Source of the DNA: an uncultured Burkholderiales bacterium | GTDB lineage: Bacteria; Pseudomonadota; Gammaproteobacteria; Burkholderiales; Burkholderiaceae_C | Assembly: GCA_903876885.1 (NCBI GenBank) | Contig: CAIRBP010000032.1 | Span: 1 to 64,000, forward strand | Direction: 5' to 3' | DNA length: 64,000 nucleotides | In this document: positions 1 to 39,457 of the stretch, piece by piece | Position numbering within the stretch: position 1 is the first letter of the stretch | How the letters are laid out: each line of letters opens with the position of its first letter | Made by a program: the position numbers and the translations under genes | Notes under the pieces: generated by a model | What the model was told of the DNA's origin: nothing | The model's database searches: none | The model's input: the letters and a program-made list of their open reading frames with translations, nothing else

Positions 1-812
1 CCCAGCTGGTAGTTTACGAATGAAGCCATTCCGCAGACCCGAAAGTTATCCTGCCCTTTAACCAAATTAGCAGTTCTTGTAAGGAGGACACGGGCGTTAG
101 CGTTAGCGTCTGCTTCACTCCCGCCCTTACCGTAATACTCGACCAAACCAAGGTTAAATATTGCGGGTGGATAGTTCTTGGAGGCTGCGGCTTGGTAAAG
201 GGAGGTTGCTTGCTGGATATTTCGATGAGTTCCGAATAAACCAATTTCATAAATCAAGCCCACAAAATTCTCGGCTTCTGGAACACCACTCTTGGCTGCG
301 TTTGCGATTGAATTCAACAGAGTGCTCTGAATCTCACCTTTTGCAGTTGAAAGAGCGCGGATTTTGTCGATTACCTCTGCTCCCTGGGGGGAGACAGTGA
401 TATGAGCTCCAAATTTAACGGAGTTAACTGTGCGGGGAAGACGGGCTTTAACTTTGTCTAAAAGATTTCCTTCTGTGCTGGCCTCTTGAACTGCCAAGGC
501 AGCCCTTTGTTTCTCCTCGGAAATGGAGACATTAAAAGTAGCAGAGTTAGTCATCTCCTTGGTTGGGAGAAGTGAGGGGCCAACGGTTGTTGGGAGAGCG
601 TTTATGGTGCTTTGTGCTTTGGACTTCCAATCCGCTGTGGAGTCTGTAATGGTTGGGGAATTAACGAGTGCACCAATAGGATTAGAGTAAGAATCCATAT
701 ATTGGATAGTCTGAGGGGTCTGAGTAGTTCGAGTAGGTTGTGCAGTCACGCCCCAAGAGGTCGAAAAAAGACAGAGAGAACTTATTAGAAGTGTATTGGA
801 GGAGTATGTCAT
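1..812 (-). CDS. Secreted Sel1-repeat protein, 3' end outside window
   Basis: The ORF track misses this frame because it has no stop inside the window. I read an ATG at 812 and an open frame to base 1. The product starts MTYSSNTLLISSLCLFSTSW, a signal peptide with likely cleavage after TAQ. A Ser/Thr-rich linker follows, then from about residue 180 two Sel1-like repeats (AENFVGLIYEIGLFG and PAIFNLGLVEYYGKGG) with the usual Ala/Gly/Leu/Tyr spacing. Sel1 repeats bind proteins, so a periplasmic scaffold or partner-binding role is an inference. It is divergent from the secretion ATPase at 880, with only 67 bp of AT-rich DNA between, so the two may be co-regulated. Substrate and function are unknown. 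Confidence 0.75.
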   Translation of the reverse strand, partial: MTYSSNTLLISSLCLFSTSWGVTAQPTRTTQTPQTIQYMDSYSNPIGALVNSPTITDSTADWKSKAQSTINALPTTVGPSLLPTKEMTNSATFNVSISEEKQRAALAVQEASTEGNLLDKVKARLPRTVNSVKFGAHITVSPQGAEVIDKIRALSTAKGEIQSTLLNSIANAAKSGVPEAENFVGLIYEIGLFGTHRNIQQATSLYQAAASKNYPPAIFNLGLVEYYGKGGSEADANANARVLLTRTANLVKGQDNFRVCGMASFVNYQL

Positions 813-879
813 GAATTCTTTAAATATACTGTATTATGCAATGAATTACATAAATAGCATAAACAATTAACTTTATTCA

Positions 880-2412
880 ATGAATACAAATCTAATAGAT
901 AGTCCTGAATTTGTAAAAGTGTCGAATTACTTTGATCAGCTTACTGAGATTGAGGCCAATAAGATTTTGTTGGTGAACGTGACACGAAAAAATGAGGCAT
1001 TGCTCAGAAAAATCATTATTTACACCATCATCAAGGGCTTTAGTGACATTCACATCGAGATAGAGAATACCAGTAGCGGGCATGAAACCAACATCTTCGT
1101 CAGAGACGGAGATGATTTCCAGGGCGTAGAGAATTTGAATGACAAGAGTAAGGAAATTAAAGAAAGACTTTTCTCGCTCTGTAATTTTATGGGTGGTGCG
1201 GTGGAGGGGGTTAACTGGTCAGCTAGCTTTAAAGTCCAGTTGCCTGCGGATGTTGCCCTGCATTTTGGGCTAAAACCTTTTGAAGGACTACCCTACTCTG
1301 TTAATTTCAGGGTTGAGTACATAGAGACGTTTTCAGGGATTGCATTTACCTGCCGTCTGATTGATCCCCAAACAACGCCAAAGTTTCAAGACCTAAAGCT
1401 ACCCAAGTTACTGAGTGAGACGATCATGGAGATTTGCCGAGCCCCTAGTGGTTTCGTTGTGATCTCTGGTCCAACGGGTTCGGGTAAGTCGACCTTGCTC
1501 AACGCAATATTTCAGGCTTTGAATGATGGTTCCAAATCTGTAGTCACGATCGAGAACCCTGTCGAATTTAAGATATTTAAGAAAGGCGCACCTGTTAAGC
1601 AAATCCAGGTGAGAGGAGAGATCACATTCTCAAGCGCACTGAGAGCAACACTAAGACTTGACCCTCAACTCATATTGGTTGGGGAGATAAGGGACTTCGA
1701 GACAATGGACGCCGCTATTGAGGCGGCTAATACGGGGCACTTGGTATTTGCAACCGTTCATGCCAATGATGCACACAACACTTTGCAACGCATGAACCAG
1801 CTAAAAGCCGATGCATTCAGACTCTCAGAGAGTTTGACACTGGTTTTGGCGCAAAGGTTGTTGACTACTTACGCAGGGCCTGGTGTCAAACGTGAGTTAA
1901 CGTTTGATGAGAAAGCGTGGCTCGGTAAGAACGGCATCTACATGGATCACATTACGGAGAACATGGGACCTAAATGCGGGAAGGTTCCTGTTATTGAGGC
2001 GATTGTGATGGACGCAGGTGTTAAGAATGAGATTCGCAAAGGAGAGAAGATTGATACGTTAGCAGTTTACAAAGCTGCCAGACACCAACATACCTATGAA
2101 TCGATGGTTTCATTCGGGGTTAGGTGCGTCCTTGACCACGGCTGTAGGCTCTCCCAGGTTCAACAAAGTTTAGAGCAGAATCCCCATGCTAAAGAGTTTC
2201 CAGGATTCAGGGTTGAATTGGCCCGGAAATACGGAGTATCCCTATCGGATGTTTCATTATCCATAGAAGACTACTATGCCAATAGAAACCAGGATACGCA
2301 AGAGAGCTTGGAGGAGACCTTAAACGATAAGTTCGGTTACGTACCTAACAACATTACCCCCTTAGTTCCACGGGGGGTGTTGCCACCCTCTTCGCATCAC
2401 AACCTTAGATAG
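880..2412 (+). CDS. GspE/PilT-type secretion ATPase (pilus or IncI/Dot-like)
   Basis: This is a hexameric secretion or pilus motor of 510 residues. The N-terminal domain carries DIHIEIEN, similar to the ASDIHIE element of GspE/PilB proteins. The ATPase core has Walker A GPTGSGKST near residue 200, an Asp-box region (TIENPVEF), Walker B LILVGEIRD near 265 and a His box (GHLVFATVHAND). Type II secretion, type IV pili, R64 thin pili (PilQ) and the IncI/Dot type IVB systems (TraJ, DotB) all use such ATPases. I cannot tell which group this belongs to. The C-terminal 120 residues are not recognised. The next gene, for a secreted thioredoxin-fold protein, starts 3 nt after the stop, which suggests an operon belonging to a mobile or pilus locus that continues left of the window. 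Confidence 0.85.
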   Translation: MNTNLIDSPEFVKVSNYFDQLTEIEANKILLVNVTRKNEALLRKIIIYTIIKGFSDIHIEIENTSSGHETNIFVRDGDDFQGVENLNDKSKEIKERLFSLCNFMGGAVEGVNWSASFKVQLPADVALHFGLKPFEGLPYSVNFRVEYIETFSGIAFTCRLIDPQTTPKFQDLKLPKLLSETIMEICRAPSGFVVISGPTGSGKSTLLNAIFQALNDGSKSVVTIENPVEFKIFKKGAPVKQIQVRGEITFSSALRATLRLDPQLILVGEIRDFETMDAAIEAANTGHLVFATVHANDAHNTLQRMNQLKADAFRLSESLTLVLAQRLLTTYAGPGVKRELTFDEKAWLGKNGIYMDHITENMGPKCGKVPVIEAIVMDAGVKNEIRKGEKIDTLAVYKAARHQHTYESMVSFGVRCVLDHGCRLSQVQQSLEQNPHAKEFPGFRVELARKYGVSLSDVSLSIEDYYANRNQDTQESLEETLNDKFGYVPNNITPLVPRGVLPPSSHHNLR

Positions 2413-2415
2413 ACC

Positions 2416-3102
2416 ATGTATAAACGAAATCTATTAATTGGACTTCTAGCGGCTACAGCGATTAGTTCGTTCGCTCAGACTAATGAAGCCCGTATTACCC
2501 AAGTAAACACAGCCACTGGGTCTGGTCCAACTGCATCTTTAAAGCCATACCTAGAAGTTACGCCCTATAAGCCAGACGCTAATGCGGTAAGGATTTTCTT
2601 CTCACCGACTTGTATGTATTCACGAGAGTATCTGAGCTTCTTTAAGAACCTAGATACTACTTTGAGTGCGAAGACCGCAAAAACTACAATCTTTACCCCA
2701 ACAACGAATTTTGTTGACGGAATTAATTATGCGATGGCATTTGCAGCTGTTCGAAGATTCCATCCTGCCTATCTTCAAAACTTTATTGAAGCGAGTATGA
2801 CCGCATCACAGGATAAGCATATTAATGTATTTGGTTGGGCTGGAATTGAAACTGTTGGAGCTGCTGTGGGATTTGGGAAATCAAAGCAAATACCTGAATC
2901 TTTGCCTTTACTAGTTTCAAAGAATAAAGTAATCTTGTACAAGGATGTTCAAGAGTATCAGGCAGCACAAAAGGCGTTACAAATCATAGGAACACCTTCA
3001 GTTGCAGTTGTAGGGACTTATGTGATTTCACCTGAGTTCACACTAGGGGATGCCGATAGGTTTAGCGAATTAATTAATGCTGTTGTTTCAATGACTTTAT
3101 AA
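2416..3102 (+). CDS. Secreted thioredoxin-fold protein with CxxS active site
   Basis: The 228-residue product begins with a signal peptide (MYKRNLLIGLLAATAISSFA) and has a DsbA/DsbC-like fold. The redox motif sits in FFSPTCMYSREYLSFF, and the cis-proline loop in IIGTPSVAVVG near residue 195. The active site is CMYS, not CxxC, so the resolving cysteine is replaced by serine. Such proteins can form mixed disulfides or act as isomerases but are poor dithiol oxidases; that is family knowledge and is not shown here. The gene is 3 nt downstream of the secretion ATPase, so it probably helps fold or hold Cys-containing parts of that apparatus in the periplasm. Confidence 0.7.
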   Translation: MYKRNLLIGLLAATAISSFAQTNEARITQVNTATGSGPTASLKPYLEVTPYKPDANAVRIFFSPTCMYSREYLSFFKNLDTTLSAKTAKTTIFTPTTNFVDGINYAMAFAAVRRFHPAYLQNFIEASMTASQDKHINVFGWAGIETVGAAVGFGKSKQIPESLPLLVSKNKVILYKDVQEYQAAQKALQIIGTPSVAVVGTYVISPEFTLGDADRFSELINAVVSMTL

Positions 3103-3121
3103 TAGTTCTAGAAATCATCAA

Positions 3122-3213
3122 TTAATAAGCACCGCCATTGGCATGAATCGTCTGACCAGTGATATAACTTGCCTTCGCACTATACAGTGAGCCCGATGGT
3201 GCAAACTTAAAGT
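3122..3213 (-). pseudogene. 3' remnant of a short-chain dehydrogenase (FabG/PhaB-like)
   Basis: Reading the minus strand gives a short open stretch ending ASYITGQTIHANGGAY then TAA. This is the typical C-terminus of FabG/acetoacetyl-CoA reductase-type SDR enzymes (SYITGQ..HVNGG). Upstream the frame runs only about 28 codons before a TGA, and none of the Rossmann or catalytic parts are present. It is therefore a gene tail left by a deletion or insertion. It lies between accessory genes on both sides, which marks a probable rearrangement junction. Confidence 0.7.
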
Positions 3214-3465
3214 CAACTATTCAATAAGTGTTGCACAGTAGTCGCTTACTGATTTAATAGAAAATAAGGAGTAATAAAAAAAGACATCCTGCCAACTTGA
3301 AAACTAATTAAGCAGTCTCTAACTACATTAATAAATACTTAAATCCTGTCAGACTTAGTGGACTTTATTGGCTGTAACAAAGCTACAGCTCTGATGATAT
3401 GCTTTGAGTAGTCTAGCTTCCCACCTGCTCAGGCATGCATTGTTATGTATTTTTGCGAAAAAACG
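3214..3465. other. Non-coding junction region
   Basis: With the SDR remnant this completes a gene-free stretch of about 360 bp between the secreted thioredoxin-fold gene and the GIY-YIG gene. It is AT-rich with no credible ORF. It contains a small inverted repeat (GCTGTA..TACAGC near 3371). I searched by eye for a copy of the tRNA-Val 3' end that would mark the left end of the integrative element and found none. Confidence 0.4.
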
Positions 3466-4380
3466 CTAGTTCCAGTTAAGCTCACTGCCAATTTTTCTTT
3501 TGAGAAGCTGTTCGAAATGAAGAACTTCAGACTTTGTAGTTGGACCTCTTGGAGTAACATGGTGTATGGAGTACATAAAATTCTCACAATGAGTTGGGTC
3601 TAAGTCAGTCAGCACAACCAGACCTTTGTTACCATTATTCCCCGTCTTGACATACCCAGACCACCGCCCCCAAATTCCTCCAGAACCATCTCTATCAGAG
3701 TAGGCAGAGCCAACATAGCGCTGATTGGTCTTTTTGTCCAATATTAAGTAAACTCCGTCATGTCCAGATAAAAAGCGATGCCAATCTTTATTACCCTCTG
3801 GATTATTGATTAATCCCCGTAACATTTGATGACTAATAAATACATTCTCCCATCCTGGAAAATCAGATATAAAACCTTTTGGCATTATTTCCGAAATTTC
3901 TTTATTTATTTGCTTTTGCACCCAGCTTACTGTTGAACCGCCCCAATCAATTATTAATCGGTTTTGAAATTCACTTAGCACATCGCTTTTTTCAAGTTCG
4001 AAATAAAAATGGTCACCCTCATTTACAGCAATATTATTTTCGTTTCTGAAATCGCAATATTCCTTATACTTCGGGTGCAAGGAAGTAAATCTGTCTTTAG
4101 AAACTATTCCTTTCGAAGTGAATCCACCTCTAAATAGGCAGCGACCACCTTCTGTTGCAACAAAAACCAATATTAGCTCCGAATCTTTATATTTATTCTC
4201 AGATTGCTCTGCAGTAAAAATGAGTAATAAATCGTTGTCGAATTTAAGTCTCTCATCAAACCCAGCCCAATCACCATCAGTTCTATTTTTCATGGTGTGA
4301 CGGACTAGCCTGATCTTGTTTCTTGCAATTAAATGCTCAACTTCAGGATTCACTACCCGCAATAACTTTTCTAAATTCAT
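3466..4380 (-). CDS. GIY-YIG domain protein
   Basis: The 304-residue product has a C-terminal GIY-YIG nuclease-like domain: GVYLILDKKTNQRYVGSAY (about 208-226) followed by GGIWGRWSGYVKTG, which matches the GIY, YIG and catalytic Arg region. The N-terminal 190 residues are unlike UvrC or SLX1 and I do not recognise them. It is the second gene of a pair: the LprI-Sel1 gene ends 32 nt upstream on the same strand. GIY-YIG nucleases with a large extra domain occur in mobile elements and in several phage-defence systems; a defence role here is inference. Start ATG at 4380. Confidence 0.75.
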   Translation of the reverse strand: MNLEKLLRVVNPEVEHLIARNKIRLVRHTMKNRTDGDWAGFDERLKFDNDLLLIFTAEQSENKYKDSELILVFVATEGGRCLFRGGFTSKGIVSKDRFTSLHPKYKEYCDFRNENNIAVNEGDHFYFELEKSDVLSEFQNRLIIDWGGSTVSWVQKQINKEISEIMPKGFISDFPGWENVFISHQMLRGLINNPEGNKDWHRFLSGHDGVYLILDKKTNQRYVGSAYSDRDGSGGIWGRWSGYVKTGNNGNKGLVVLTDLDPTHCENFMYSIHHVTPRGPTTKSEVLHFEQLLKRKIGSELNWN

Positions 4381-4412
4381 TTAAGATTAGTTCGCAAAAA
4401 TAATTTGTGGGA

Positions 4413-6068
4413 CTAGGCTACAGAAACAGTCTCTCCCCTTTCGCGTATGCCCTCTATCCAAGCACCAAGCCAACTCAAGTCTAAGTCACTGGCTAGATCT
4501 ACTCGATACCCACATTCAGTGCCCCCACCGAACTGAAGGTATCGCACTTTTACTTGACGACTGGATACAACAGAGTAAGGGAAAAGTGGCTCACAAGGTT
4601 CAACAGCTTCACTAAAGTCAAAGGTATATGTGAATTGCCACATATTATCTTCCTCAGCTAAAGTTTTGCTAATAGCGTCAGTGTTGGAAAATGATATGCC
4701 GTCATAATCTTTCAATCGGTATAACGTCATTTCATCATAATTTTCAAGAAAAATACCCGGATCATCAATGCTTTCCTCTTCTGAAGAAATTTGAACGGAG
4801 CCATCAATTATGAATGAACCAGTAGAGCCATCCGGGAACCAGGTGTCATCATTAATTGTCGAAATCAAAACAGACATTTGATAGCCTAAGGATTCTTTAT
4901 TTACCCCGTCCCAATCAGGGACATCATCTGCATCACTATCAATAGCACTATCCTCGCTGATATGTTCCGTAGAAACTTTCTGATTTTCGTCCTGAAGTTG
5001 ACTGAGGAAATCAACGGCTCGTTGAGGGACCTTATCAACTTTACGCCATTTTTCGATTTCGTTTAAGGAAATCTGAAAGTGATTGGTGACTCGGTCTAAC
5101 CCAATACCTTGATCAAAGAGTTTTTTATACCATTCATCAAATGACATGGAGCTGAAAATCTCAACTACAGAATCGGTGGCGGATTTATTAAGCGAATTTA
5201 AAAATAAGATCGCACTAGGATGTTGTAGTGATGCAGCCTGTTTCATCCAGGCTATCCCGGCCTGATAATGAGAGTCACCATCAGCAGAGGATTGCTCAAG
5301 CATCAATTTACCTAATTGATATTGACTATTTAGATGTCCTCTATTTGATAACTCATCTAACAATTGACTCGCTTTGCTCAAACTCCCTGCCTTAAGCAAT
5401 TCCAAGGCTCTTTGATACATTTCTTCAGTAGGATCTTTAGACTCGGTCACGGGAACTATCGGAGCTATAGTCTGGACTTTTCTAGTCTCTTGCAAATCTA
5501 TCATCTGTTGAGACTCATCACTACCAGAAGTTTTCTTTCTATTCCTAAACACCATGAATATAACTGCCATAATTGCCGCAACAATAGCTGCAACAAATCC
5601 TGATCGAAAAGAAGATTTATTATCTTCTGATGAATTTTTTTCAGTTTTTGAGCTGTCACCTGAAGACTTAGGCTGCACCTGCTCAACAGTATTCATATTA
5701 TTTTGAGATGGAGCTACAAAGGAACTTGACGCAATATTATCTGGAGGATTTTGTAACTTTTTATCTAAATACTGTATTCGATCATAAAACATTGGCTTTA
5801 AGCAGGAGGCTATAGCATCAATATCGCCGTTACATTGCTTTAATGACTTCAACCACTCCCTTTGCTCCTCTTTTACACCTGGATTTACCTCATATTCTTT
5901 AGCGTAAGCTGAAGCCAACTTATCATCAAGCGCAGATAATTCTGGATCAATACAGATAGCCTTATCTATTGGTCTTACTGCATTAGTGCAATCGAAGCTT
6001 GCCGCATAAGTCAAAACAGAAAACAATAAAAAAACCCAGAATAAAATAAATTTACTTTTATTGTTCAT
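4413..6068 (-). CDS. Membrane protein: LprI domain, TM, Sel1 repeats, HTH-like segment
   Basis: The 551-residue product begins with a signal peptide (FILFWVFLLFSVLTYA). A periplasmic LprI/DUF1311-type domain follows (about 24-105, with FDCTNAVRPIDKAICIDPEL). A single membrane span lies near 158-174 (VAAIVAAIMAVIFMVF) and ends in RNRKK, placing the rest in the cytoplasm. The cytoplasmic part has Sel1/TPR-like repeats (about 215-295) and then a segment that reads like a Cro/CI helix-turn-helix (VTNHFQISLNEIEKWRKVDK). The last 160 residues are acidic and unrecognised. The layout suggests a transmembrane sensor or scaffold; this is inference. It is first in a pair with the GIY-YIG gene. The HTH call is by eye and uncertain. 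Confidence 0.7.
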   Translation of the reverse strand: MNNKSKFILFWVFLLFSVLTYAASFDCTNAVRPIDKAICIDPELSALDDKLASAYAKEYEVNPGVKEEQREWLKSLKQCNGDIDAIASCLKPMFYDRIQYLDKKLQNPPDNIASSSFVAPSQNNMNTVEQVQPKSSGDSSKTEKNSSEDNKSSFRSGFVAAIVAAIMAVIFMVFRNRKKTSGSDESQQMIDLQETRKVQTIAPIVPVTESKDPTEEMYQRALELLKAGSLSKASQLLDELSNRGHLNSQYQLGKLMLEQSSADGDSHYQAGIAWMKQAASLQHPSAILFLNSLNKSATDSVVEIFSSMSFDEWYKKLFDQGIGLDRVTNHFQISLNEIEKWRKVDKVPQRAVDFLSQLQDENQKVSTEHISEDSAIDSDADDVPDWDGVNKESLGYQMSVLISTINDDTWFPDGSTGSFIIDGSVQISSEEESIDDPGIFLENYDEMTLYRLKDYDGISFSNTDAISKTLAEEDNMWQFTYTFDFSEAVEPCEPLFPYSVVSSRQVKVRYLQFGGGTECGYRVDLASDLDLSWLGAWIEGIRERGETVSVA

Positions 6069-6789
6069 GCTAGTCGGTACTCCTTAAACGTGCGCAAAAG
6101 TGTAGAACTGATTTTCAAGTCTTAGCTACGACGAAAGTAATATCTCAATTTCCACCGGGCTTAGAGGTAAATCGCTTATACAAGTATAACTAACTATTTT
6201 TGTTTTAATTGCGATTGATTAACAGCTAGTCAGGCCTTAACAATCGCAATAGTGCTTATCTTACAAATTATTATTACTTAATCAGTAATTAAAGTCAAAC
6301 CTATCATTTTTTAACGAGGCTACGCCAACCTCTCTGCAATCGTAATTGACATTAATTCGTTTATATGTTTTACATGCACTCCTGCAATATTACTAATTTA
6401 TTTAATTGAATTTTGCTTATCCGTTCCTGCCATCAGTTCTTGAGTTGCAGAGGTATGGCGAAAGATATACAAGGTACACTTTTCATTAAGCATGTAAGTG
6501 TGTCTAACGTTTAGGAACAACCGTCTTATTTGTTAGGCTGAAAACTGATGTGATGACCGTGAACTTCTCCATTAACCTCATTTTTGTATTTATTAACTGG
6601 CACTTAATCAATAGGGCTTCCTGACAATCATCCCGAGAAGACTTATGGAGCTCTGTGTGATCCTTGGGCTTTAGTGCTCTCAGCAGTTTCCATAGCGATT
6701 TCATAAACCCCAGCATCACAACGACATTAAAGCCAGTTCAGTTACATACACATTAAACAGAAAAAAAATGTAATCAAAGATTTAATTAT
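6069..6789. other. 721-bp AT-rich intergenic region with a perfect inverted repeat
   Basis: This separates the cargo pair from the replication/regulation genes of the integrative element. It is AT-rich. It contains a perfect 10-bp inverted repeat, ATTGCGATTG at 6208-6217 and CAATCGCAAT at 6241-6250, with a 23-nt spacer. The only ORF on the track (6504-6719, minus, 71 codons) has no recognisable motif and I do not call it. The region may hold the promoter of the LprI-like gene and possibly a replication origin, but nothing decisive is visible. Confidence 0.4.
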
Positions 6790-7074
6790 TCATGGAATCG
6801 GATCATAGCCCTCTCCGAGCAATCCAATCTTATATAAATAGGCATTTACTTCCACGTCAGATGCACCATCCAACACAAAATCTGAAGATGGAGTTGGAGA
6901 CGCTCCTTCAGGGCTAATCAATTTTGACCTCAGGTTGTATAAGCCGCTTGCTTGCCCCCTCAAATGCTCCGCTTTATGGGCAGAGCTCCAGTCCCCAGCT
7001 CTCGCCGCTGCGTCCCTTATAACCCTCAAGTCTTCAAGGTGCTCTTCTAAAGTAATAGTTGGAGAATTAGTCAT
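6790..7074 (-). CDS. Small unknown protein of integrative element (94 aa)
   Basis: I do not recognise this protein. It has an Ala/Arg/Glu-rich helical N-terminal half (LEEHLEDLRVIRDAAARAGDWSSAHKAEH) and an unstructured-looking C-terminus. The helical part resembles short phage and satellite proteins of unknown role. Its start overlaps the end of the upstream 96-aa ORF by 4 nt (ATGA-type overlap), which supports translation of both. It is the last gene of the leftward block that starts with the AlpA-like gene. Confidence 0.55.
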   Translation of the reverse strand: MTNSPTITLEEHLEDLRVIRDAAARAGDWSSAHKAEHLRGQASGLYNLRSKLISPEGASPTPSSDFVLDGASDVEVNAYLYKIGLLGEGYDPIP

Positions 7075-7361
7075 CTTCTCGTCCCTGACTTGTCAAAATA
7101 TTTTTTAAGTGGCTTTTCTTCAAAGATATTATTCCCAGTTTTCTCATCAAGTTTTTTTAGACTAAGCACTATTTCCGAGCCAAGTGCTTTGAGTCTAAGG
7201 TTGATTTCGTCAATATAAACTCCATTGTTATGTTGAAAAGCTAAATATATTTCATCAGTAATTTTTCTAAACTCTATTTCTTCGATCTCCTGCTTTTTGA
7301 ATAATTTAGTGTATTCGGAATGTCGTAGACGTCTTTTTAGATTTGATTTGTTTAATCTCAT
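7071..7361 (-). CDS. Small unknown basic protein of integrative element (96 aa)
   Basis: A short, very Lys/Arg-rich protein with an N-terminal basic stretch (MRLNKSNLKRRLRHSEYTK) and predicted helices. No family is recognised. A nucleic-acid-binding role would fit the basic N-terminus but is a guess. It lies in the leftward gene block of the element, overlaps the next ORF by 4 nt, and is separated from the upstream phage-type gene by about 70 bp. Confidence 0.5.
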   Translation of the reverse strand: MRLNKSNLKRRLRHSEYTKLFKKQEIEEIEFRKITDEIYLAFQHNNGVYIDEINLRLKALGSEIVLSLKKLDEKTGNNIFEEKPLKKYFDKSGTRR

Positions 7362-7431
7362 TTTTTATCCCATATATTAGAAAATCTCGATAATTGGCGA
7401 CTGAGATGGACTGTTAATCATTGCAAAGTCA

Positions 7432-7998
7432 CTACCCGCCTTTACTCTGCTTTAGATATTCACTCTGTTCAGCATTTTCTTCTTCAAAGCCCTTAAGCCA
7501 CTCTTTGTGCTCATCTGTAATACCTTCCTTACTGATAAACTGAATTGATTTGATTGAATTTGAATTAATTTGACTTAAAGAACCTTCAGGTATACCTTGA
7601 GGTTTACCATCAAGTACCCCATTAAGGTATTTGGCATTTACTTTCTTGATGGCAGCCCCCAATTTCCCTCCATCAGACTGCGCTTGTCGAGTTAGAGTCA
7701 CATTACTCTTGTATCCATCTAATTCAGGACATCTCATTTGATCTCCGTCCACGACAAAGTAGCTGAGCACCCGAGGAGTCAGAGAATCCATGATCGTTTT
7801 CTCGTCATAGCCAAAATATCTAGCTAGCTCACTCGGATTTCGAGGCAGGAAATTATTAACCCAGTATTCGTTATAAAGAGTCCATAAAACCCCCCTTTCG
7901 GGGAGACTCATCAGTTTGAACCTCCTATCAGAATTCCAATTCGCGCTGTAGTTGTAGAAGTAAGGAAGAGGCTTTAAGACTTTTTGAGATTTATCCAT
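7432..7998 (-). CDS. Phage-type replication/regulatory protein (DUF1376/YdaU-like)
   Basis: The product has an N-terminal segment of the kind seen in phage replisome-organiser/YdaU-like proteins: RRFKLMSLPERGVLWTLYNE, then LPRNPSELARYFGYDEKTI, where each animal-free element matches the pattern of dense-growth, low-similarity phage winged-helix domains. Next comes TRQAQSDGGKLGAAIKKV, similar to the basic Gly/Ala linker of that group. The assignment is by pattern and tentative. The ORF track starts at 8022, but ATG 7998 (MDKSQKV) is preceded by a good ribosome-binding site (GAGGAGAAAGAATA), so I use it. It overlaps the upstream gene by 8 nt. Confidence 0.55.
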   Translation of the reverse strand: MDKSQKVLKPLPYFYNYSANWNSDRRFKLMSLPERGVLWTLYNEYWVNNFLPRNPSELARYFGYDEKTIMDSLTPRVLSYFVVDGDQMRCPELDGYKSNVTLTRQAQSDGGKLGAAIKKVNAKYLNGVLDGKPQGIPEGSLSQINSNSIKSIQFISKEGITDEHKEWLKGFEEENAEQSEYLKQSKGG

Positions 7999-8341
7999 TA
8001 TTCTTTCTCCTCGAATTACCACAAATCAAATCTAAGGCATTTGAAATATTTTCGGGCTCAGGTTTAAGCCAATAGCGCTTTACAGAGATTGTTGCCTTTC
8101 CCCCCAAACACGGAACGATTTCAAATTTTCGATCTATCAAAATGCCGAACTTACCCAATGTCGCCACAGTTGAATTTAAACAATGATCGTTTAGTTTTTC
8201 AGCCTCAAAGCGATTAAGGGTATGTCCATCAAGGAATTGAATTAAAATGTTCTCGAGTTTGTTTTGTCTTTTCTTTAAATCAGGACAAGCTTTTACACAG
8301 GCCGTGGCTAGCCCCACGGCCTTTTCTTTTAAGTTGTTCAT
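7991..8341 (-). CDS. Phage-type small protein, possible winged helix (116 aa)
   Basis: The product has a middle segment HTLNRFEAEKLNDHCLNSTV, then TLGKFGILIDRKFEIVP and RYWLKPE. I have the impression of a recurrent prophage small-protein family with a helix-turn-helix layout that acts on DNA, but I cannot name it. It sits 3 nt after the AlpA-like gene and overlaps the following replication-type gene by 8 nt, so it is translated in the same operon. Confidence 0.55.
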   Translation of the reverse strand: MNNLKEKAVGLATACVKACPDLKKRQNKLENILIQFLDGHTLNRFEAEKLNDHCLNSTVATLGKFGILIDRKFEIVPCLGGKATISVKRYWLKPEPENISNALDLICGNSRRKNNG

Positions 8342-8344
8342 GAT

Positions 8345-8560
8345 TCATACCTCCAGTTGCTGACTGGCTGCAATTCGAGAAATAACCCATCCTCTAACCT
8401 TACTTTGTTGCCATCGACGTATCTTCGAAGTTAATTTGATTGGCCTTGGGAACTCGCCATTTTTCATTAGTTGATAGATCGTCGATCTACCTAAGCCCGA
8501 TTCCTCTCCAACTTCATCTATATTTATTAAGGGATCGTAAGATTCAATAATTGCGGACAT
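8345..8560 (-). CDS. AlpA-family HTH regulator/excisionase
   Basis: The 71-residue protein matches the AlpA family of MerR-like DNA-binding proteins. A helix-turn-helix (NIDEVGEESGLGRSTIYQLM) is followed by the typical FPRPIKLTSKIRRWQQSKV and a Trp-containing C-terminus (VRGWVISRIAAS). AlpA/Cox-like proteins of P4-type satellites activate integrase or act as excisionases. It begins the leftward gene block, 273 bp downstream of the integrase stop, and probably controls excision or the block itself. A reasonable ribosome-binding site (AAAGGTAT) precedes the ATG. Confidence 0.85.
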   Translation of the reverse strand: MSAIIESYDPLINIDEVGEESGLGRSTIYQLMKNGEFPRPIKLTSKIRRWQQSKVRGWVISRIAASQQLEV

Positions 8561-8833
8561 TTAGATACCTTTTCTAAATGCGCTAAGTATTCAAATTAAA
8601 AATAGCATAGCGCAAAACACTCTGATCAAGGTGCTTTAGGCTACGCCCCAAGCAATAATGCTTACAGACGCTACTCTAAATTTAGTGACAATGTGGTCGT
8701 AACAATAAAGCTATGACATTAACAGTCAAACCCGCTAAGTTTTGTAAGTGATCTTAAAATCTTACTAGCTATACTCGTGGTATGTCTTGAGTCTATTACA
8801 CATTCGTGTATAAACTGATAAATTCATTTGGAT

Positions 8834-9997
8834 TTAAACAACAAGTCTGGATAAAGCCTCTTTTGAATGCTTTTGGGTCAAATGTCCATAATGCTTTTCA
8901 ATCATCATTATGCTGGTGCCTGCTAACTGAGCTACAGTTAAGGTATCCAATCCACCATGAACTAAGTCCGTAATCACTGAGTGCCTAATAGTTCCCATTG
9001 TTACGTTAGAGGGCAATTCAGCTTTTAATACTGCGGCCCTTATAGGGTCTTTCCATGCGTCTTTATTCCAAGTCATGCCATCCAACCTGGTGAAGATACT
9101 TGCCCCGGGTAGCTTGTCCTTGATTTTCAAATTAAACAAGTCCGCTGCTTCTGGAGGCAGGGATATTTTGCGATGGCGCTTAGTTTTATCTTTAAAAACG
9201 CTGAGCGTTCCAAAATTGCTATCGTAATTTCCTACAATTAGCTTTGCAATTGCCCCGCACCTAAGCGGTATCAAGCAGCAGCACTTAACGAAGTCAGCTA
9301 AATCTGGAGGACATGAAATATAAAGTTTTCTACGCTGGGCTAAATCTAAATAGGCCTCCCTTGCATGTTCAGCATTCTTAATTGGAACAAGCTTCCCTTG
9401 CCAGGCAAAATCACTTGTTATCAGTCCCTCTTTAAAAGCTAAATTAAGAGCAGAGCGCAAACAAGTCATATCCCTGTTCAACGTACTATCCTTTCGCAAT
9501 TCCCCCTTATTAGGGCCGCTTTCAGTTACTGTTTCTTCGAGTAGTTTTCGCCAGTCGACAAAATGGGATGGTTTTAGTTTGGTTACATCAAGTTTTGAAA
9601 GCTTCGTTTTGTAAACATAGCGCTTGAATCGAAGATGAGCATCATTAGCACCGGATTCATTTTTCTCATTCTTTTTATGAACAACGTACCTTTCGCAGAT
9701 ATTTTGAACTGTCAGCACTTCAGCAGTACCGCCACGCCCAAGATGTTCAAACCAATTTAAAGCATCTTTGCGGGCAAGTTCAAATCTTTCGTTATCAGGG
9801 CGTTCAGAGTAAGCTCCGAGCGTGATCTGGTGCCTTTTCCCGGTGTCCTTATCGCTAAATCTTGCAGAATACGATCCATCACTTGAAGTGCTCATTTTTC
9901 TGAAGCCCATGTAGCATCCCGCCATTAATTTTGTCCAATAGGGATCGCGCTTGGGTTTAAGTTTGTCTCGCTCTATTACCTTAGAAAAGGCTGTCAT
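8834..9997 (-). CDS. Tyrosine recombinase (integrase) of the tRNA-Val element
   Basis: This 387-residue site-specific recombinase begins 126 bp from the 3' end of tRNA-Val, the usual position for an integrase that uses the tRNA as attachment site. The C-terminal catalytic domain shows the first Arg region (CLIPLRCGAIAKL), the second Arg (GTIRHSVITDLV) and the nucleophile Tyr in MIEKHYGHL. The usual His of HxxR is replaced (MGTIR) and the second His/Trp position reads AGTS. Relatives with AGTS...MIEKHYGHL exist as far as I recall, so this is probably a subfamily feature and not inactivation. An SD-like AAGGGA precedes the ATG. Confidence 0.9.
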   Translation of the reverse strand: MTAFSKVIERDKLKPKRDPYWTKLMAGCYMGFRKMSTSSDGSYSARFSDKDTGKRHQITLGAYSERPDNERFELARKDALNWFEHLGRGGTAEVLTVQNICERYVVHKKNEKNESGANDAHLRFKRYVYKTKLSKLDVTKLKPSHFVDWRKLLEETVTESGPNKGELRKDSTLNRDMTCLRSALNLAFKEGLITSDFAWQGKLVPIKNAEHAREAYLDLAQRRKLYISCPPDLADFVKCCCLIPLRCGAIAKLIVGNYDSNFGTLSVFKDKTKRHRKISLPPEAADLFNLKIKDKLPGASIFTRLDGMTWNKDAWKDPIRAAVLKAELPSNVTMGTIRHSVITDLVHGGLDTLTVAQLAGTSIMMIEKHYGHLTQKHSKEALSRLVV

Positions 9998-10122
9998 AAA
10001 TCCCTTAGTAGCTAGGCTCCTTTCCCAATATAGTATGGAAAAAGTATGGAAAACCTAGTGGGATTATTATGGATTATTGCGGACTTAAAAGATAGTACCA
10101 AGAGCCCTGTCAGAGGGAAACT

Positions 10123-10199
10123 TGGTAGGCGCGAATGGACTCGAACCATCGACCCCCACCATGTCAAGGTGGTGCTCTAACCAGCTGAGCTACGCGCCT
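10123..10199 (-). tRNA. tRNA-Val (anticodon GAC)
   Basis: The minus strand reads AGGCGCG at 10199-10193, a D arm (GTAGCTCAGCTGGTTAGAGC), the anticodon arm CCACC-TTGACAT-GGTGG with anticodon GAC, a T arm (GGTTCGAGTCC) and CGCGCCT with discriminator A and an encoded CCA at 10125-10123. All stems pair. The 3' end faces the integrase at 9997, so this gene is the likely attachment site of the element to its left. It is followed by relA on the same strand, upstream in transcription sense. Confidence 0.95.
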
Positions 10200-10264
10200 G
10201 TAAAGAGGGTAAATTCTAGCACATATTTATCGGTTCAACCCCAGGGCAACCCAGCAGCATTGAA

Positions 10265-12616
10265 TTATCGCCTCCTAGACGAAATCACGCTAGGGACAGA
10301 TCTCATAACAGCCAAGACCTTTTGTAACTTAGTTGAATCTGCAATCTCAACCGTAAACGTCATCCAAGCCAAGCCTTTTATAGATTCAGTTTTAACCCCA
10401 ATGACGTTCATCTTTTCTTTTGCAAAGACTTCGGAGATGTCCCTTAAAAGCCCCTGCCGATCATGAGCTCTGATCTCTACATCAACTGGATAAAAAATTG
10501 GTGTATTTGTTGCTGATTGGTTAACACCCCCCCACTGGACCTCTATGACTCGGTCCTCATTGCGCAGCACCAACTCTTTAAAATTTAAACACGAAGTCCT
10601 GTGAATGCTGACACCTTTGCCACGGGTGATGAACCCCCTAATATCGTCGGGGGGGGCGGGTCGACAACACCTTGCTAACTGAGTCATCAAAGAATCTACA
10701 CCCACAACTAAAATTCCACTTTGAGCGGGTGCGGGGCGGGACTCTTTGAGTCGAGCATTTTTTAAGAAAAGCTCATCCTCAGTCTCATTAGATTGCACTC
10801 TTGGGTGAAGGATTACTTCTATATTTCTAAGCGAGAACTCATCCTTTCCAACAACCTCAAACAAGGCTTCCGCATTTTTAAAGCCGAGTTGACTCGCCAA
10901 ATCCTCCAAATTAGTGCTGGTCTTACCCTCCCTTTGCAATAGCTTCTCGACCGACTCGCGCCCCTTTGAGACATTTTCCTGCGTTGCTAGTGCGTTAAAC
11001 CAAGCGCGCACCTTAGAGCGCGCTCTGGGACTCACCAAAAAACCTAGCTCCGGGTTCAACCAATCTCGTGAAGGTCCTCCCTCTTTCGCAGATATGATTT
11101 CTACAGTTTGACCATTTTTAAGCGGGGTATTTAGCGTAACCATAGCGCCGTCAACACGGGCTCCCCGGCAACGGTGTCCCAAATTAGTATGCAACGTGTA
11201 AGCAAAATCAACACACGTTGCACCAGACGGCAACTCCACAATAGCAGCGTTGGGAGTGAGCACATAAATCCAGTCACTCAACGTGTCAATATTGGAGAGC
11301 GAGGAGTCCCCCGCCCCTCCCGTCTGTGATGATATGTCCTGCTCCCAGGCTAAGAGTTGCCTGAGAACCGCTATTTTTTGATCGTAAGAGGAGTCCGCAC
11401 TTACGCCACCATATCCCTTTGCACCGGCCTCCTTATAAGCCCAGTGCGCCGCAACTCCGTGCTCTGCGTGATCGTGCATTTGCTGAGTGCGAATTTGTAT
11501 CTCAACTGGCAGATCTCTTTGATCCGCAACAACAGTGTGAAGCGACTGATAACCGTTAGGTTTGGGACGAGAGATGTAATCATCAAATTCATTCTCTAAC
11601 GGTCTAAGCTTAGAGTGGACATGGGCTAAAGCGGCGTAGCATTCATCATTGGTTTGGACAATTACACGCAGTGCTCGTATGTCAAAGACTTTATCAAATC
11701 CTAGGGATTTACCACGCATTTTCTTGGCAATACTATAGATATGTTTGGGTCTTCCAAACACCTGCGCACTCACTCCGATCTCCCTTAACTCTCTCTCTAG
11801 TTGTGCCCGGAGTTGCTCTACGTACACTTCACGCTCAGTCCTTTTATCCTCTAAAAGCTTTGCTATCTCTTTGTACGCGAGAGGCTCTAAAAATCTAAAC
11901 GCCAAGTCCTCCATTTCCCACTTGATCTGCCAAATACCAAGCCTATTGGCTAAGGGTGCAAAAATAGTAAGTGCCTCTTGTGCAATTTCTTTAGGAGCTA
12001 TTTCCTTTTGAGCTGCGTAATACCTCAGTGTTTGAACACAAGAGGCTAGTCTGAGCATCACAACTCGAAAGTCCCTTGAGAAAGCTAAAAGCATGCGCCT
12101 AACGTTCTCAGTTTGTGCGACGCCCTCTAATTTTGGTGGACGAGATATTTGCTTTGCTCTGGTTTGCTTTTCTAGTCTAAGCAACTCTGTGGCCTCTACC
12201 GCTAAAGCGGTCATGCTTTCACCGAATACCTTGCCAATGATCTCTGCAGGCTTGGAGAGATAGGCACTTGCATAAACCAAATAGCTAGCGGCTTGAAGGG
12301 ACTCAGAGCCACCAATTTGCTTCAAAATCGCCGCAACAGCATCTGCATGAGCCAATGAGTTTTCACCACTATCAAGTGACTCAAATTCAAGTAGTCTTTC
12401 TGCAAAAATTCTGGCCTTTGAAAGAACCTCAGACTCCTCAGTAGAGCCTGCAGATGTTACCTGTGAAGCCAAAGCAATAGAGACAAAGTCGGTCATTGGA
12501 TTGGTAGCGCTGGTCTTTGAGGCCAAAGGAGCACTATGCTCTGTGCTCGTGGCAGCGTAATTCTGGGTGGTCTTAGGACTCAACGTTTCCAAACAAATAC
12601 CTTTAAAAATTTTCAA
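10265..12616 (-). CDS. relA: GTP pyrophosphokinase RelA
   Basis: This 783-residue enzyme of the RelA/SpoT group makes (p)ppGpp in the stringent response. The N-terminal region corresponds to the HD hydrolase domain but lacks the His-Asp pair (AASYLVYASAYLSKP), so hydrolysis is presumably lost. The synthetase domain (about 230-400) has RPKHIYSIAKKMRGK and the RelA-type acidic motif NEFDDYI, where SpoT would have RFKDY. A TGS domain (DWIYVLTPNAAIVELPSGAT) and a C-terminal ACT domain (HDRQGLLRDISEVFAKEKMN) follow. Both signatures favour RelA. Start ATG at 12616; it follows an alpha/beta hydrolase gene on the same strand, 42 nt away. Confidence 0.93.
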   Translation of the reverse strand: MKIFKGICLETLSPKTTQNYAATSTEHSAPLASKTSATNPMTDFVSIALASQVTSAGSTEESEVLSKARIFAERLLEFESLDSGENSLAHADAVAAILKQIGGSESLQAASYLVYASAYLSKPAEIIGKVFGESMTALAVEATELLRLEKQTRAKQISRPPKLEGVAQTENVRRMLLAFSRDFRVVMLRLASCVQTLRYYAAQKEIAPKEIAQEALTIFAPLANRLGIWQIKWEMEDLAFRFLEPLAYKEIAKLLEDKRTEREVYVEQLRAQLERELREIGVSAQVFGRPKHIYSIAKKMRGKSLGFDKVFDIRALRVIVQTNDECYAALAHVHSKLRPLENEFDDYISRPKPNGYQSLHTVVADQRDLPVEIQIRTQQMHDHAEHGVAAHWAYKEAGAKGYGGVSADSSYDQKIAVLRQLLAWEQDISSQTGGAGDSSLSNIDTLSDWIYVLTPNAAIVELPSGATCVDFAYTLHTNLGHRCRGARVDGAMVTLNTPLKNGQTVEIISAKEGGPSRDWLNPELGFLVSPRARSKVRAWFNALATQENVSKGRESVEKLLQREGKTSTNLEDLASQLGFKNAEALFEVVGKDEFSLRNIEVILHPRVQSNETEDELFLKNARLKESRPAPAQSGILVVGVDSLMTQLARCCRPAPPDDIRGFITRGKGVSIHRTSCLNFKELVLRNEDRVIEVQWGGVNQSATNTPIFYPVDVEIRAHDRQGLLRDISEVFAKEKMNVIGVKTESIKGLAWMTFTVEIADSTKLQKVLAVMRSVPSVISSRRR

Positions 12617-33917: not shown

Positions 33918-35315
33918 CTATTTCTGGGTAACAGAAACTAAGTCAAAAGACTCCTGAACTACCCAAGATACTCTTGTGCCTGCATTAACTTCTACAATAG
34001 GGAACATCTGACGTGCATAGTCCAAATAAAATTTCGATAACTGTCCCAAAGACGTACTAACACCCTGACCCACTGCACTTCCAGCTATAAGACTTGTATT
34101 TGGCATAACAAAACCCTGCTGGGAGCCGCTCGTAGCACTAGAGTTATATGACGGCAAAGCCTGAGGGGAAAAAGCAGCTCCTACCCCAGCAAACATTCCC
34201 GCTGCAGCCTCTTTAGCTAAGATTGAGCCTTGTTTGGTTACTAAACGCCCAGACAAGCCTTGAATACCATCAAGGTCGACACCATAGGCTCTAATTCTAG
34301 CTTCGAAAATCAATCCAGCAGCGTTTACACAAGTCAACTTATCTGCAGTAACGTTCGCCCTCTCGGTAGATAAAATACCAATTCCTGTGCCAGACAAAAA
34401 ACAATCAGTTAAGTCAGCTACTCGCCATCCATTAGGCAAAATCGCAGCCCCTTTTACTCTAGATATAAATGGAGACCCAACGTTATTAGCTGAAATAATT
34501 GAACCACCTGTAGTTCCGCCAGTAGCACTTGTTCGAGCATTGATTCCAGATAACATTACAGCATCGATAACAGATGTTGCTGGAATAGTAACAAATGATT
34601 TAACTGATGTACTTGGTTTTGTCTCTTGTACTTGGAGACCCCACTGATGAATGTTGTGGTGATCCTGGATACTAGTTAATAGCTTAGGAACATTACGATT
34701 CAAAGAGTTCGGCTTTGTAGATGAATTGAGATTTAAATGAGAATCTGTGGACTTAAAACGATTTGTTTCTTGCGCCAACTCTTCATCAGTCGATTGTGTG
34801 AAGTCAATTGGTGGAGGGAGGTTACTCTTAAAATCAACTTGACTAGAGCGCGACGCAGAGGTTAAAGTTTGCAAATTACTGGAGGAGGATGAAGAAAGTG
34901 AATTTTGCTTCATTTGTTCAAGCAAAGCTATTTTTGATTGCAATTGTTTATTTTGTTCCGCCATCAGATGCAACTCCTCTTTTGCATCAAAGACAACTTG
35001 TCTCGTATAGTCAAAGTCAGCTTTTAGCTCCTCAAGGCCTAAATTGCGGTTAGTTTGTGGCAAAAGAGTATTTATAACTATAGAGTCTTTAGTTTGCCTT
35101 AAATCGCCAGACGAATTTTGACTATTTGGCAGTCTGGATTGATTAGACGTGTCGCTTTTTAAACTCTTTAAATTTTGAACTCTATGATATTCATGATTCG
35201 AATAGACTTGCCAAGATAAAAGTAAAAAAACTAATGCAATACAAAAGCACCATATTTTTTTTGATTTAGGATCAGAATCAATCCACTTAACACGTAGTTC
35301 GTGGAACTTATTCAT
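33918..35315 (-). CDS. traB: F-type T4SS protein TraB (VirB10-like)
   Basis: TraB spans the cell envelope and forms, with TraK and TraV, the outer-membrane core of F-type type IV secretion systems. The 465-residue protein has a cytoplasmic start, one membrane span (CFCIALVFLLLSWQVYS), a coiled coil (about 80-125), a Ser/Asn-rich linker and a C-terminal VirB10-like domain (TIPATSVIDAVMLSGINART and DLDGIQGLSGRLVTKQG). This is the last gene of the operon; its start overlaps traK by 4 nt. Confidence 0.88.
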   Translation of the reverse strand: MNKFHELRVKWIDSDPKSKKIWCFCIALVFLLLSWQVYSNHEYHRVQNLKSLKSDTSNQSRLPNSQNSSGDLRQTKDSIVINTLLPQTNRNLGLEELKADFDYTRQVVFDAKEELHLMAEQNKQLQSKIALLEQMKQNSLSSSSSSNLQTLTSASRSSQVDFKSNLPPPIDFTQSTDEELAQETNRFKSTDSHLNLNSSTKPNSLNRNVPKLLTSIQDHHNIHQWGLQVQETKPSTSVKSFVTIPATSVIDAVMLSGINARTSATGGTTGGSIISANNVGSPFISRVKGAAILPNGWRVADLTDCFLSGTGIGILSTERANVTADKLTCVNAAGLIFEARIRAYGVDLDGIQGLSGRLVTKQGSILAKEAAAGMFAGVGAAFSPQALPSYNSSATSGSQQGFVMPNTSLIAGSAVGQGVSTSLGQLSKFYLDYARQMFPIVEVNAGTRVSWVVQESFDLVSVTQK

Positions 35316-36358
35316 TGATATTCAGACTTAAATGGCTGTTTTTTTGATATGACTAGAATTTTGGTGTTTTCACCTTTTGCTAAGATGGGAGAGGGAAAAA
35401 TAGATATAGCCAAAACTGTCTCACCGTCAAACTCTTTCTCACTAAGAGTTGCTGTGTTTGAGCTAGGATTGCGAGCTTCATATATATAAATCTCTTGATC
35501 AATGCTGGACATACGAGTAAGCGGAATAACGACTAGACCATTCATAACAATTGGAGATATATTCTTTAAAGAAATATTAGTGAATCCAGATGGATTTTGA
35601 TTATTTACTGCCATTTCCATAGTATTTACGATCAGAGAAATATAGTCATTTGATCTACTTTGCCTTACTAATCCTCTAGAAATGCCTGAATTATCAACAA
35701 CCTTTATAACCTGAGAAGCTATTGATTTTGGTATCAACTGAAGACTCAGAACAGTACTTGACTGAGATTGATTTTCAACAAATAATTGAATGGGTTTCGA
35801 TGAGCCAGGTTTAAATTGAAAATATATATTTGAATCAGATTGCTTTATTTCCAAATCGTCTGTAGAAGTGATGAGAGGATGTGAAAAAGGAATTTGAATT
35901 AAATTTATATCATTTTTTGAAACATATACCGATGATGATCCACCATTGACGAATTCAACTATTTGCCCCCTTGTTGGATCGATAGTCTGCGCATTTACAC
36001 CAGGTATATTTATTACCCCAGGAAGGATGATTTCTTTAAATGGTGAATCTTTAATTGGTAATAGCCCAGAAGAATCAATAGTAGGATTAACCTCCGTTAA
36101 ATTCTTATTTATATGCCTTAGAGCAGTAGTTCGAGACTTAGCTTTTGAGCCATCAGCATGTTCAAAATTAGATGATTTAGTGCTATTTTTTGATAACGTT
36201 GAGGAATTATGTAATTGAGAATCCATTATATTTGCACTATATTGAGCATCTATCCCAACAGTTGATGTTTGGGTTTGGGTTTGTGTTTGGGTTAATCCAA
36301 TTTCGAAGATAGATAAAAGTAGCAATATAAATGCAAGCTTCAGAAAAAAATTACTCAT
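35312..36358 (-). CDS. traK: F-type T4SS protein TraK (VirB9-like)
   Basis: TraK is the secretin-like outer-membrane core partner of TraB. The 348-residue product has a signal peptide followed by a QTQTQTQTQT tract and an unstructured linker. Its C-terminal two thirds has the TraK layout, with VEFVNGGSSSVYVSKNDINL and IPFSHPLITSTDDLEI. Assignment relies on position (TraE-TraK-TraB order) and these segments. It overlaps traE and traB by 4 nt each, so translation is coupled. Confidence 0.78.
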   Translation of the reverse strand: MSNFFLKLAFILLLLSIFEIGLTQTQTQTQTSTVGIDAQYSANIMDSQLHNSSTLSKNSTKSSNFEHADGSKAKSRTTALRHINKNLTEVNPTIDSSGLLPIKDSPFKEIILPGVINIPGVNAQTIDPTRGQIVEFVNGGSSSVYVSKNDINLIQIPFSHPLITSTDDLEIKQSDSNIYFQFKPGSSKPIQLFVENQSQSSTVLSLQLIPKSIASQVIKVVDNSGISRGLVRQSRSNDYISLIVNTMEMAVNNQNPSGFTNISLKNISPIVMNGLVVIPLTRMSSIDQEIYIYEARNPSSNTATLSEKEFDGETVLAISIFPSPILAKGENTKILVISKKQPFKSEYQ

Positions 36359-36969
36359 AATGATAATTTCTTTTGATTTTCAAGCCACAATGAATCATGA
36401 AATTCATTACCAGAGTATGTTTCAAGGACTGTAATCAAAGGTCTGTAATTTTCAACCCGCATAGTTATTTCATACACCCAAGATTGTGAAGTATTTTTCA
36501 CAACATTTACTGTGTGAATATCACCTTTAACAAAGTGCTTATTCAATATAGGATCAAACATATATTCTTTAAATTCAAAATAAAATGAACCAAGTTCATG
36601 TTGCTCAGTCATTCTTTTAACCTGAAAATCAATTTGATTAGAGATATTCGTGAAAACTTCTGGCGCCAAAAAACTTTGGATAAAAATTTTTTCATAACTG
36701 TAATTAATGCTATTTATCTGAGAAATGGCATTAACAGTTGCTAATATGATTGCCTTTTGCGAACCACTATCTAAGGTTTGTTTACCGTAAGTTGACTCGA
36801 TTAAAGAACCTCCTCCACCGGGAATCTGAACAACAACTATTTTATTTTGAAATACTAAATATAGTATCAATAAAGAAATAATAGCAAGAAGAAATATGTT
36901 TGAAATGCGTAAATACTTAACCCAAGTCATCATTTCGTTAATTGTCTTAGTATGCTGTTTTAGTTCCAT
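36355..36969 (-). CDS. traE: F-type T4SS protein TraE (VirB8-like)
   Basis: TraE is an inner-membrane assembly protein. The 204-residue product has a short cytoplasmic start, one membrane span (ISNIFLLAIISLLILYLVF) and a periplasmic domain of NTF2-like VirB8/TraE type (SINYSYEKIFIQSFLAPEVF, ITMRVENYRPLITVLETYSG). It lies between traL and traK, the same order as in the F plasmid, with 4-nt overlap to traK. Confidence 0.85.
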   Translation of the reverse strand: MELKQHTKTINEMMTWVKYLRISNIFLLAIISLLILYLVFQNKIVVVQIPGGGGSLIESTYGKQTLDSGSQKAIILATVNAISQINSINYSYEKIFIQSFLAPEVFTNISNQIDFQVKRMTEQHELGSFYFEFKEYMFDPILNKHFVKGDIHTVNVVKNTSQSWVYEITMRVENYRPLITVLETYSGNEFHDSLWLENQKKLSL

Positions 36970-37009
36970 TTGATTTCGTACTTTTAAAAAAATTATTTCT
37001 TTAAAATAT

Positions 37010-37348
37010 CTAAAGAAAACATATTGAAAGAGAAGTATTCAAAATAATTGAATTACCAATAAACAATTTGTTTTGCTTATTGAAAGCCTCCGAGTAACCC
37101 AATATTGAATATTGGTAAAGAACGGAAAGAATAAATCCATCCAACTGCTCTTTTTTATAACTAACAAAATATCTAGTTAATAAAAAGCCTATCAGAACAG
37201 TAATAAATGGAAGCATCAAACTTCCCATGCTTGAAATTGGTAAAGCAACGAATATTGAGCAAATAAGAGGTGCTGTATCCTTTAATTCAACGCCTAAGAA
37301 AGTTACCCCTAAATTCGCTCCTCGAGGTATTCTGTGTAATTTAGACAT
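37010..37348 (-). CDS. traL: F-type T4SS protein TraL
   Basis: The 112-residue protein has a short N-terminus (HRIPRGANLGVTFLGVELKD) and two hydrophobic segments (LICSIFVALPISSMGSLMLP, FITVLIGFLLTRYFVSYKKE), the layout of TraL/VirB3-like pilus assembly proteins. It begins at 37348, sharing its first base with the last base of the upstream gene, and precedes traE by 40 nt. The order L-E-K-B strongly supports the name. Confidence 0.82.
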   Translation of the reverse strand: MSKLHRIPRGANLGVTFLGVELKDTAPLICSIFVALPISSMGSLMLPFITVLIGFLLTRYFVSYKKEQLDGFILSVLYQYSILGYSEAFNKQNKLFIGNSIILNTSLSICFL

Positions 37349-39456: not shown

Positions 39457-39457
39457 C

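Follow-up and report, generated by a model that had tools for sequence, protein, structure and literature searches.

The second of two closely spaced leftward genes on a probable integrative element almost certainly encodes the anti-phage nuclease UzuA (ORF B), and the gene directly upstream (ORF A) encodes a membrane protein with an LprI–TM–Sel1–HTH-like architecture. Both lie in a 64,000-nt stretch of DNA from an uncultured bacterium (the window). ORF B belongs to a known defence family and so is not new itself. The architecture of ORF A is rare and new, having been found twice, in one genus and at one tRNA slot, and the combination of ORF A and ORF B is likewise new, though unproven as a system. 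By analogy with the membrane-bound nuclease SNIPE we tentatively favour the reading that the two proteins act as a functional pair, in which ORF A would tether or gate the UzuA nuclease at the inner membrane like a SNIPE split over two chains. A chance adjacency of the two genes is almost as likely.

Table 1 Features of the gene pair, of the integrative element and of the relative in a second species (window coordinates unless another contig is named)
Feature	Position	Strand	Basis or remark
ORF B, UzuA family nuclease (Uzume), 304 aa	3466..4380	-	PADLOC PDLC03973, E 2.4e-64; AlphaFold pLDDT 91
ORF B residues 205-300, GIY-YIG domain with Y211, Y222, R239, E290	3481..3768	-	conservation and structure match
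ORF B residues 1-200, conserved UzuA N-terminal domain	3781..4380	-	alignment; invariant H28, R141, W146
ORF A, signal peptide - LprI - one TM - Sel1-like - HTH-like - orphan C-terminal domain, 551 aa	4413..6068	-	domain searches, codon usage
ORF A residues 385-551, orphan C-terminal domain	4416..4916	-	coding by codon usage; no relative found
ORF A residues 310-356, HTH-like segment	5001..5141	-	predicted helices 310-319, 324-331, 335-344, 349-366; strong conservation with G789 copy; no Pfam match
ORF A residues 212-295, Sel1/TPR-like helices, predicted cytoplasmic	5184..5435	-	two-sequence profile vs PDB 6ok3, E 4.7e-8
ORF A residues 154-176, single membrane span, then RNRKK	5541..5609	-	hydropathy peak 2.65; predicted helix 154-178
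ORF A residues 27-105, LprI-type domain, predicted periplasmic	5754..5990	-	Pfam LprI 15 bits; phrog_4675 E 1.6e-23; phage/plasmid relatives; 47% identity to G789 copy
ORF A residues 1-22, signal peptide or first hydrophobic segment	6003..6068	-	hydropathy; predicted helix 3-24
AlpA-type excisionase/regulator	8345..8560	-	Pfam Phage_AlpA, E 8.5e-12
Tyrosine integrase	8834..9997	-	Pfam Phage_integrase, E 3.1e-7; phrog_1, E 1.8e-38
tRNA-Val(GAC), integration site	10123..10199	-	3' 48 nt (10123-10170) recur perfectly on contig C2, same genome
L150 protein, LprI-PDZ-TM-Sel1-HTH with 14 DUF4116 repeats, 1491 aa	G789 contig C133, 3920-8395		no integrase adjoining

The nuclease gene and its transcriptional context

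ORF A lies upstream of ORF B on the same strand with an intergenic gap of 32 nt, exactly as in the original prediction (Table 1). By codon usage, only the frame given there fitted coding in either gene, and the last third of ORF A, scored separately, proved to be coding as well. The G+C content of the pair was 38.5%, compared with 44.5% in the window's core stretch. A good Shine-Dalgarno sequence (AAGGAG) precedes ORF A; upstream of ORF B no strong ribosome-binding site specific to this gene was found. Terminator-like sites were detected neither between the two genes nor elsewhere in the pair region, and promoter-like sites were not commoner there than in shuffled sequence. Since genes on one strand with a 32-nt gap and no terminator-like site between them are usually co-transcribed, ORF A and ORF B presumably form a short operon.

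The C-terminal GIY-YIG motif that had been noticed in ORF B was borne out. The UzuA profile of PADLOC (PDLC03973) matched residues 18–300 of the 304-aa protein over profile positions 14–271 of 278, while Pfam and NCBIfam yielded no usable match to ORF B. All 61 aligned relatives matched the UzuA family in PADLOC as well, and within this alignment Y211, Y222 and E290 were invariant and R239 was kept in 60 of the 61 sequences. An AlphaFold model computed from the family alignment (pLDDT 91, pTM 0.85) supported the GIY-YIG fold, and Foldseek retrieved the I-TevI catalytic domain with a probability of 1.00 (E = 2.5e-3) as the only convincing match to the model. An ASCH domain at rank 30 of the Foldseek list (probability 0.15) is a mere lead with very weak resemblance. 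The N-terminal 200 residues are a family-specific UzuA domain. In the UzuA tree, ORF B falls on a small, deep and fully supported branch shared only with its closest relatives L060 and L061 (44–47% identity), which stem from a Comamonadaceae MAG and a SAR86 MAG. A search of viral contigs with the single ORF B sequence gave no match.

As UzuA/Uzume is already catalogued as anti-phage, the defence role that had initially been put forward as inference is better founded for ORF B, and its novelty is correspondingly lower. The genetic surroundings of the family could also be explained by the assumption that ORF B serves the element itself, as a restriction-like or competitor-excluding endonuclease, and is not a general defence gene. 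GIY-YIG domains occur in homing enzymes too, one UzuA relative in the tree comes from a viral contig, and the pooled neighbours of 51 UzuA-like loci included 7 N6/N4 DNA methylases, 4 ParB_N proteins and 5 DUF5681 proteins. PADLOC names among the neighbours of 51 UzuA loci were counted with no background set, so that no enrichment is claimed. However, no methylase was seen adjoining ORF B, and both the catalogued anti-phage role of UzuA and the family-specific N-terminal domain of ORF B make a purely element-serving enzyme very unlikely.

Architecture and relatives of the membrane protein

ORF A had been read as a periplasmic LprI domain followed by one membrane span, cytoplasmic Sel1 repeats and a segment like a Cro-type HTH. 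An LprI-like N-terminus, a single predicted span and Sel1-like repeats were recovered, but the HTH was recognised by no Pfam family. LprI (PF07007) scored 15 bits in ORF A against a curated cut-off of 22, and 23 bits in a relative from a second species (G789). The phage family phrog_4675 matched residues 6–159, and LprI-annotated relatives of the N-terminus came from plasmids and from phages such as RB49 and SSU5. Hydropathy analysis indicated a signal peptide at the N-terminus and a single span around residues 152–177 that is flanked by basic residues towards the C-terminus, an arrangement that would place LprI in the periplasm and the remainder of the protein, including the Sel1/HTH part, in the cytoplasm. 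The Sel1 assignment was weak from the single sequence (Pfam E = 0.083) and became clear with a two-sequence profile, which matched a Sel1 protein of the PDB (6ok3). Envelope proteins of these bacteria often contain LprI domains; the same genome (G000) encodes another single-span LprI protein of 256 aa (L152; contig C8, 4556–5326) that by eye reads as zinc-ribbon–TM–LprI.

Pfam returned no HTH family, Cro/XRE type included, either for the isolated segment of ORF A or for the relative in G789. Structure prediction, which had supported the nuclease fold of ORF B, gave a poor single-sequence model of ORF A (pLDDT 44 overall) with only short helices at the HTH-like segment (pLDDT about 75), and this model was used as secondary structure only. 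Predicted secondary structure and conservation of the mid segment are compatible with an HTH, which may bind DNA. For the orphan C-terminus, no convincing relative emerged from plasmids, IMG/VR or 101 relatives.

The sole relative with the same architecture was found in another species of the genus (G789, locus L150), where it occupies the same tRNA-Val slot beside relA. This protein carries an added PDZ domain and shares 47% identity with ORF A in the LprI domain, 37% from the span to the HTH (E = 4e-45) and 45% across Sel1–HTH, with strong conservation of the HTH-like segment. Its C-terminus consists of 14 DUF4116 repeats, unlike the orphan C-terminus of ORF A. The presence of a homologue at the same tRNA-Val slot indicates that ORF A is a real island gene. 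The gene adjoining the L150 protein encodes a 339-aa product that is not UzuA and belongs to no recognised family, and UzuA was not found in the G789 genome. By eye the 339-aa protein had resembled an Mrr-type nuclease (FETLVAKIF..DIDLFV..IQIK), but searches against Pfam, PADLOC and the PDB and a whole-genome search with Mrr_cat all failed, and it is therefore not called a nuclease.

The commonest gene order in the genus is relA–tRNA-Val–phaR–rimO, and no ORF A relative was present at the tRNA-Val slot of the closest genomes examined (G813, G828 and G781; some of these contigs are short). Beyond the two copies, the architecture did not recur in plasmids, IMG/VR, 101 relatives (where G789 was the only hit), 301 family genomes or 312 class genomes; none of the matches listed for the class genomes extended beyond profile position 118 of 155, so that they covered essentially Sel1 only. 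Judged by these sequence comparisons and within the reach of our searches, ORF A appears to be a modular membrane protein that is confined to one genus, belongs to a tRNA-Val island and has an exchangeable C-terminus.

The strong conservation of the HTH-like segment between the two copies would also suit a membrane-bound transcription regulator that turns the nuclease gene on after envelope stress, in place of a partner of the nuclease. A WYL-domain regulator is encoded directly upstream of UzuA in L060, the closest UzuA relative, and another WYL protein was met next to UzuA in the survey, which is in line with such a role. Against it, the HTH of ORF A is recognised by no family, and the segment sits mid-protein after the span with a further domain behind it, a domain order that differs from that of ToxR/CadC-type regulators. 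Being located upstream in the same presumed transcript, ORF A would moreover control itself. We consider a regulator quite unlikely.

Element boundaries and conservation of the pairing

The tRNA-Val integrative-element setting found support, as the integrase and AlpA genes adjoin tRNA-Val(GAC). The pair had also been placed at the distal end of the element, which the data did not support: window position 1 is the start of contig C32 in a draft assembly that is 68% complete, no repeat of the tRNA-Val end occurs within window positions 1–10400, and the perfect 48-nt copy of the 3' part of tRNA-Val was located on contig C2, roughly 2 kb short of the contig end. This copy, on a contig separate from C32, likely represents the far att of the element. 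If C2 indeed holds the far end, the gene pair lies inside the element, whose length would be 12 kb or more. No tRNA fragment marking the far end was detected on the contig that carries phaR and rimO (C23).

Several further genes were observed in these regions. A rightward gene for a GspE/PilT/TraJ-like ATPase and a gene for a secreted protein (window 880–3102) adjoin the pair and are probably part of the same element, and a minus-strand frame at 1–790, by eye a secreted Sel1-repeat protein, runs off the contig start. Between the 48-nt copy and the end of C2 (about 200–1280, L202), proteins of 224 and 123 aa are encoded; the former resembles by eye a uracil-DNA glycosylase, and neither was matched by PADLOC. 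Well away from the pair, a low-G+C (34%) F-type conjugation cluster at window 33918–41346 comprises genes for TrbI/TraB-like, TraK, TraE, TrbC, TraU, transglycosylase and DsbC-like proteins.

Uzume is described as a single-gene system. A set of 91 distinct UzuA neighbourhoods was assembled from plasmids, viral contigs and public genomes, some of them cut by contig ends; none, L060 and L061 included, contained an LprI gene or a relative of ORF A at E values up to 10. The pairing is thus not conserved, and the association of ORF A with UzuA was observed once. Of 45 genes close to UzuA on its own strand, 11 (24%) were predicted to encode a membrane span, compared with a background of 22% among nearby genes, and a general membrane partnership of UzuA was rejected on these numbers. 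The sole ORF A relative adjoins a different gene. These results do not support a conserved sensor-plus-nuclease pair. It had been stated beforehand that homologues occurring mostly alone and in core chromosomes would speak against the module; they did occur mostly alone, but many resided on plasmids or beside mobile, methylase or regulator genes and not in core chromosomes.

The neighbours that recur beside UzuA are of other kinds, namely N6/N4 DNA methylases, ParB_N or DUF5681 proteins and WYL regulators. Several loci of an Alphaproteobacterial-type UzuA clade (L086, L087, L090, L092, L094, L096 and the viral contig L139) carry a same-strand gene for a protein of 434–475 aa about 260–360 nt after UzuA. 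Three Bacteroidota loci (L097, L102 and L122) encode, directly next to UzuA, proteins of about 180 aa that look alike and possibly form a real partner family.

A chance adjacency would mean that ORF B suffices as an Uzume gene by itself and that ORF A is unrelated LprI-family envelope cargo of a variable island, with no functional meaning in their proximity. The general lack of a fixed partner among UzuA genes favours this explanation, and the different gene beside the ORF A relative in G789, the frequency of LprI domains in envelope proteins of these bacteria and the second such protein in the same genome all agree with it. It is at odds with the shared strand, the 32-nt gap and the missing terminator-like site, which usually signify co-transcription.

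A possible mechanism and comparison with known systems

The functional pair is favoured by the UzuA membership of ORF B with its intact active site and I-TevI-like predicted fold, by the common strand and the short gap, by the topology signals of ORF A and its homologue at the same tRNA-Val slot, and by the precedent of SNIPE. It is opposed by the absence of an ORF A relative beside the 91 UzuA genes and of UzuA near the relative or elsewhere in G789, by an HTH without family match, by the missing strong ribosome-binding site of ORF B and by membrane neighbours at background level. If the pair is functional, ORF B would be the UzuA anti-phage nuclease carried as cargo of the integrative element, and ORF A an accessory protein of the inner membrane, expressed together with it from the short operon. 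The periplasmic LprI domain might sense an event at the envelope during phage infection, most likely a local breach of peptidoglycan or genome injection, whereupon the cytoplasmic Sel1/HTH part would anchor either the nuclease or the DNA being injected to the membrane. UzuA could thereby cut phage DNA while the chromosome is spared. This scheme presumes sensing by LprI, a physical interaction between ORF A and ORF B, and defence activity of the pair.

A more far-reaching version, which we regard as rather unlikely, is a modular two-protein defence platform at the tRNA-Val hotspot. Here the conserved LprI–TM–Sel1–HTH protein would be combined with exchangeable C-termini and partners, and in the present case the normally solo UzuA would be tethered or gated where phage DNA enters the cell, as a split SNIPE. 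A natural UzuA gene adjoining a membrane protein offers a concrete test of whether UzuA, like SNIPE, can work at the membrane while DNA is entering. A positive outcome would imply that defence nucleases can be tethered to the membrane by combining separate components that are exchangeable; if the pairing is meaningless, what is left is one more UzuA gene and a rare, genus-restricted membrane protein.

With LprI/DUF1311 envelope proteins, ORF A shares the N-terminal domain, to which it adds the span, Sel1-like repeats, the HTH-like segment and the orphan C-terminal domain. ORF B agrees with Uzume in matching nearly the whole UzuA profile and sharing the invariant residues of the 61 relatives; it differs in having an LprI–TM–Sel1–HTH gene 32 nt before it, which none of the 91 other UzuA genes has. 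The mechanism of Uzume has been described as unknown (PMC10482375), and in the Bacillus cereus group the majority of Uzume genes are plasmid-borne (PMC11811056). CMoRE (PD-T4-3), a single-protein GIY-YIG modification-dependent restriction enzyme (PMC12923530), resembles UzuA as a single-chain defence nuclease with a second domain, but its domain order is reversed, with GIY-YIG at the N-terminus in CMoRE and at the C-terminus in UzuA. SNIPE (PD-lambda-1) is a GIY-YIG nuclease anchored in the membrane that cleaves lambda DNA as it is injected; it is built from a periplasmic N-terminus, one span, a cytoplasmic DNA-binding domain and the GIY-YIG nuclease (PMC13190303). The pair was rejected as a member of SNIPE, as nuclease and TM reside on separate genes and DUF4041 is absent (Pfam matched it to neither protein, even with E values up to 1 allowed). 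Despite the division into two chains and the N-terminal LprI domain of ORF A, SNIPE is the closest working analogue: ORF A and ORF B together would supply the same parts, with the HTH-like segment as the candidate for the nucleic-acid-binding one.
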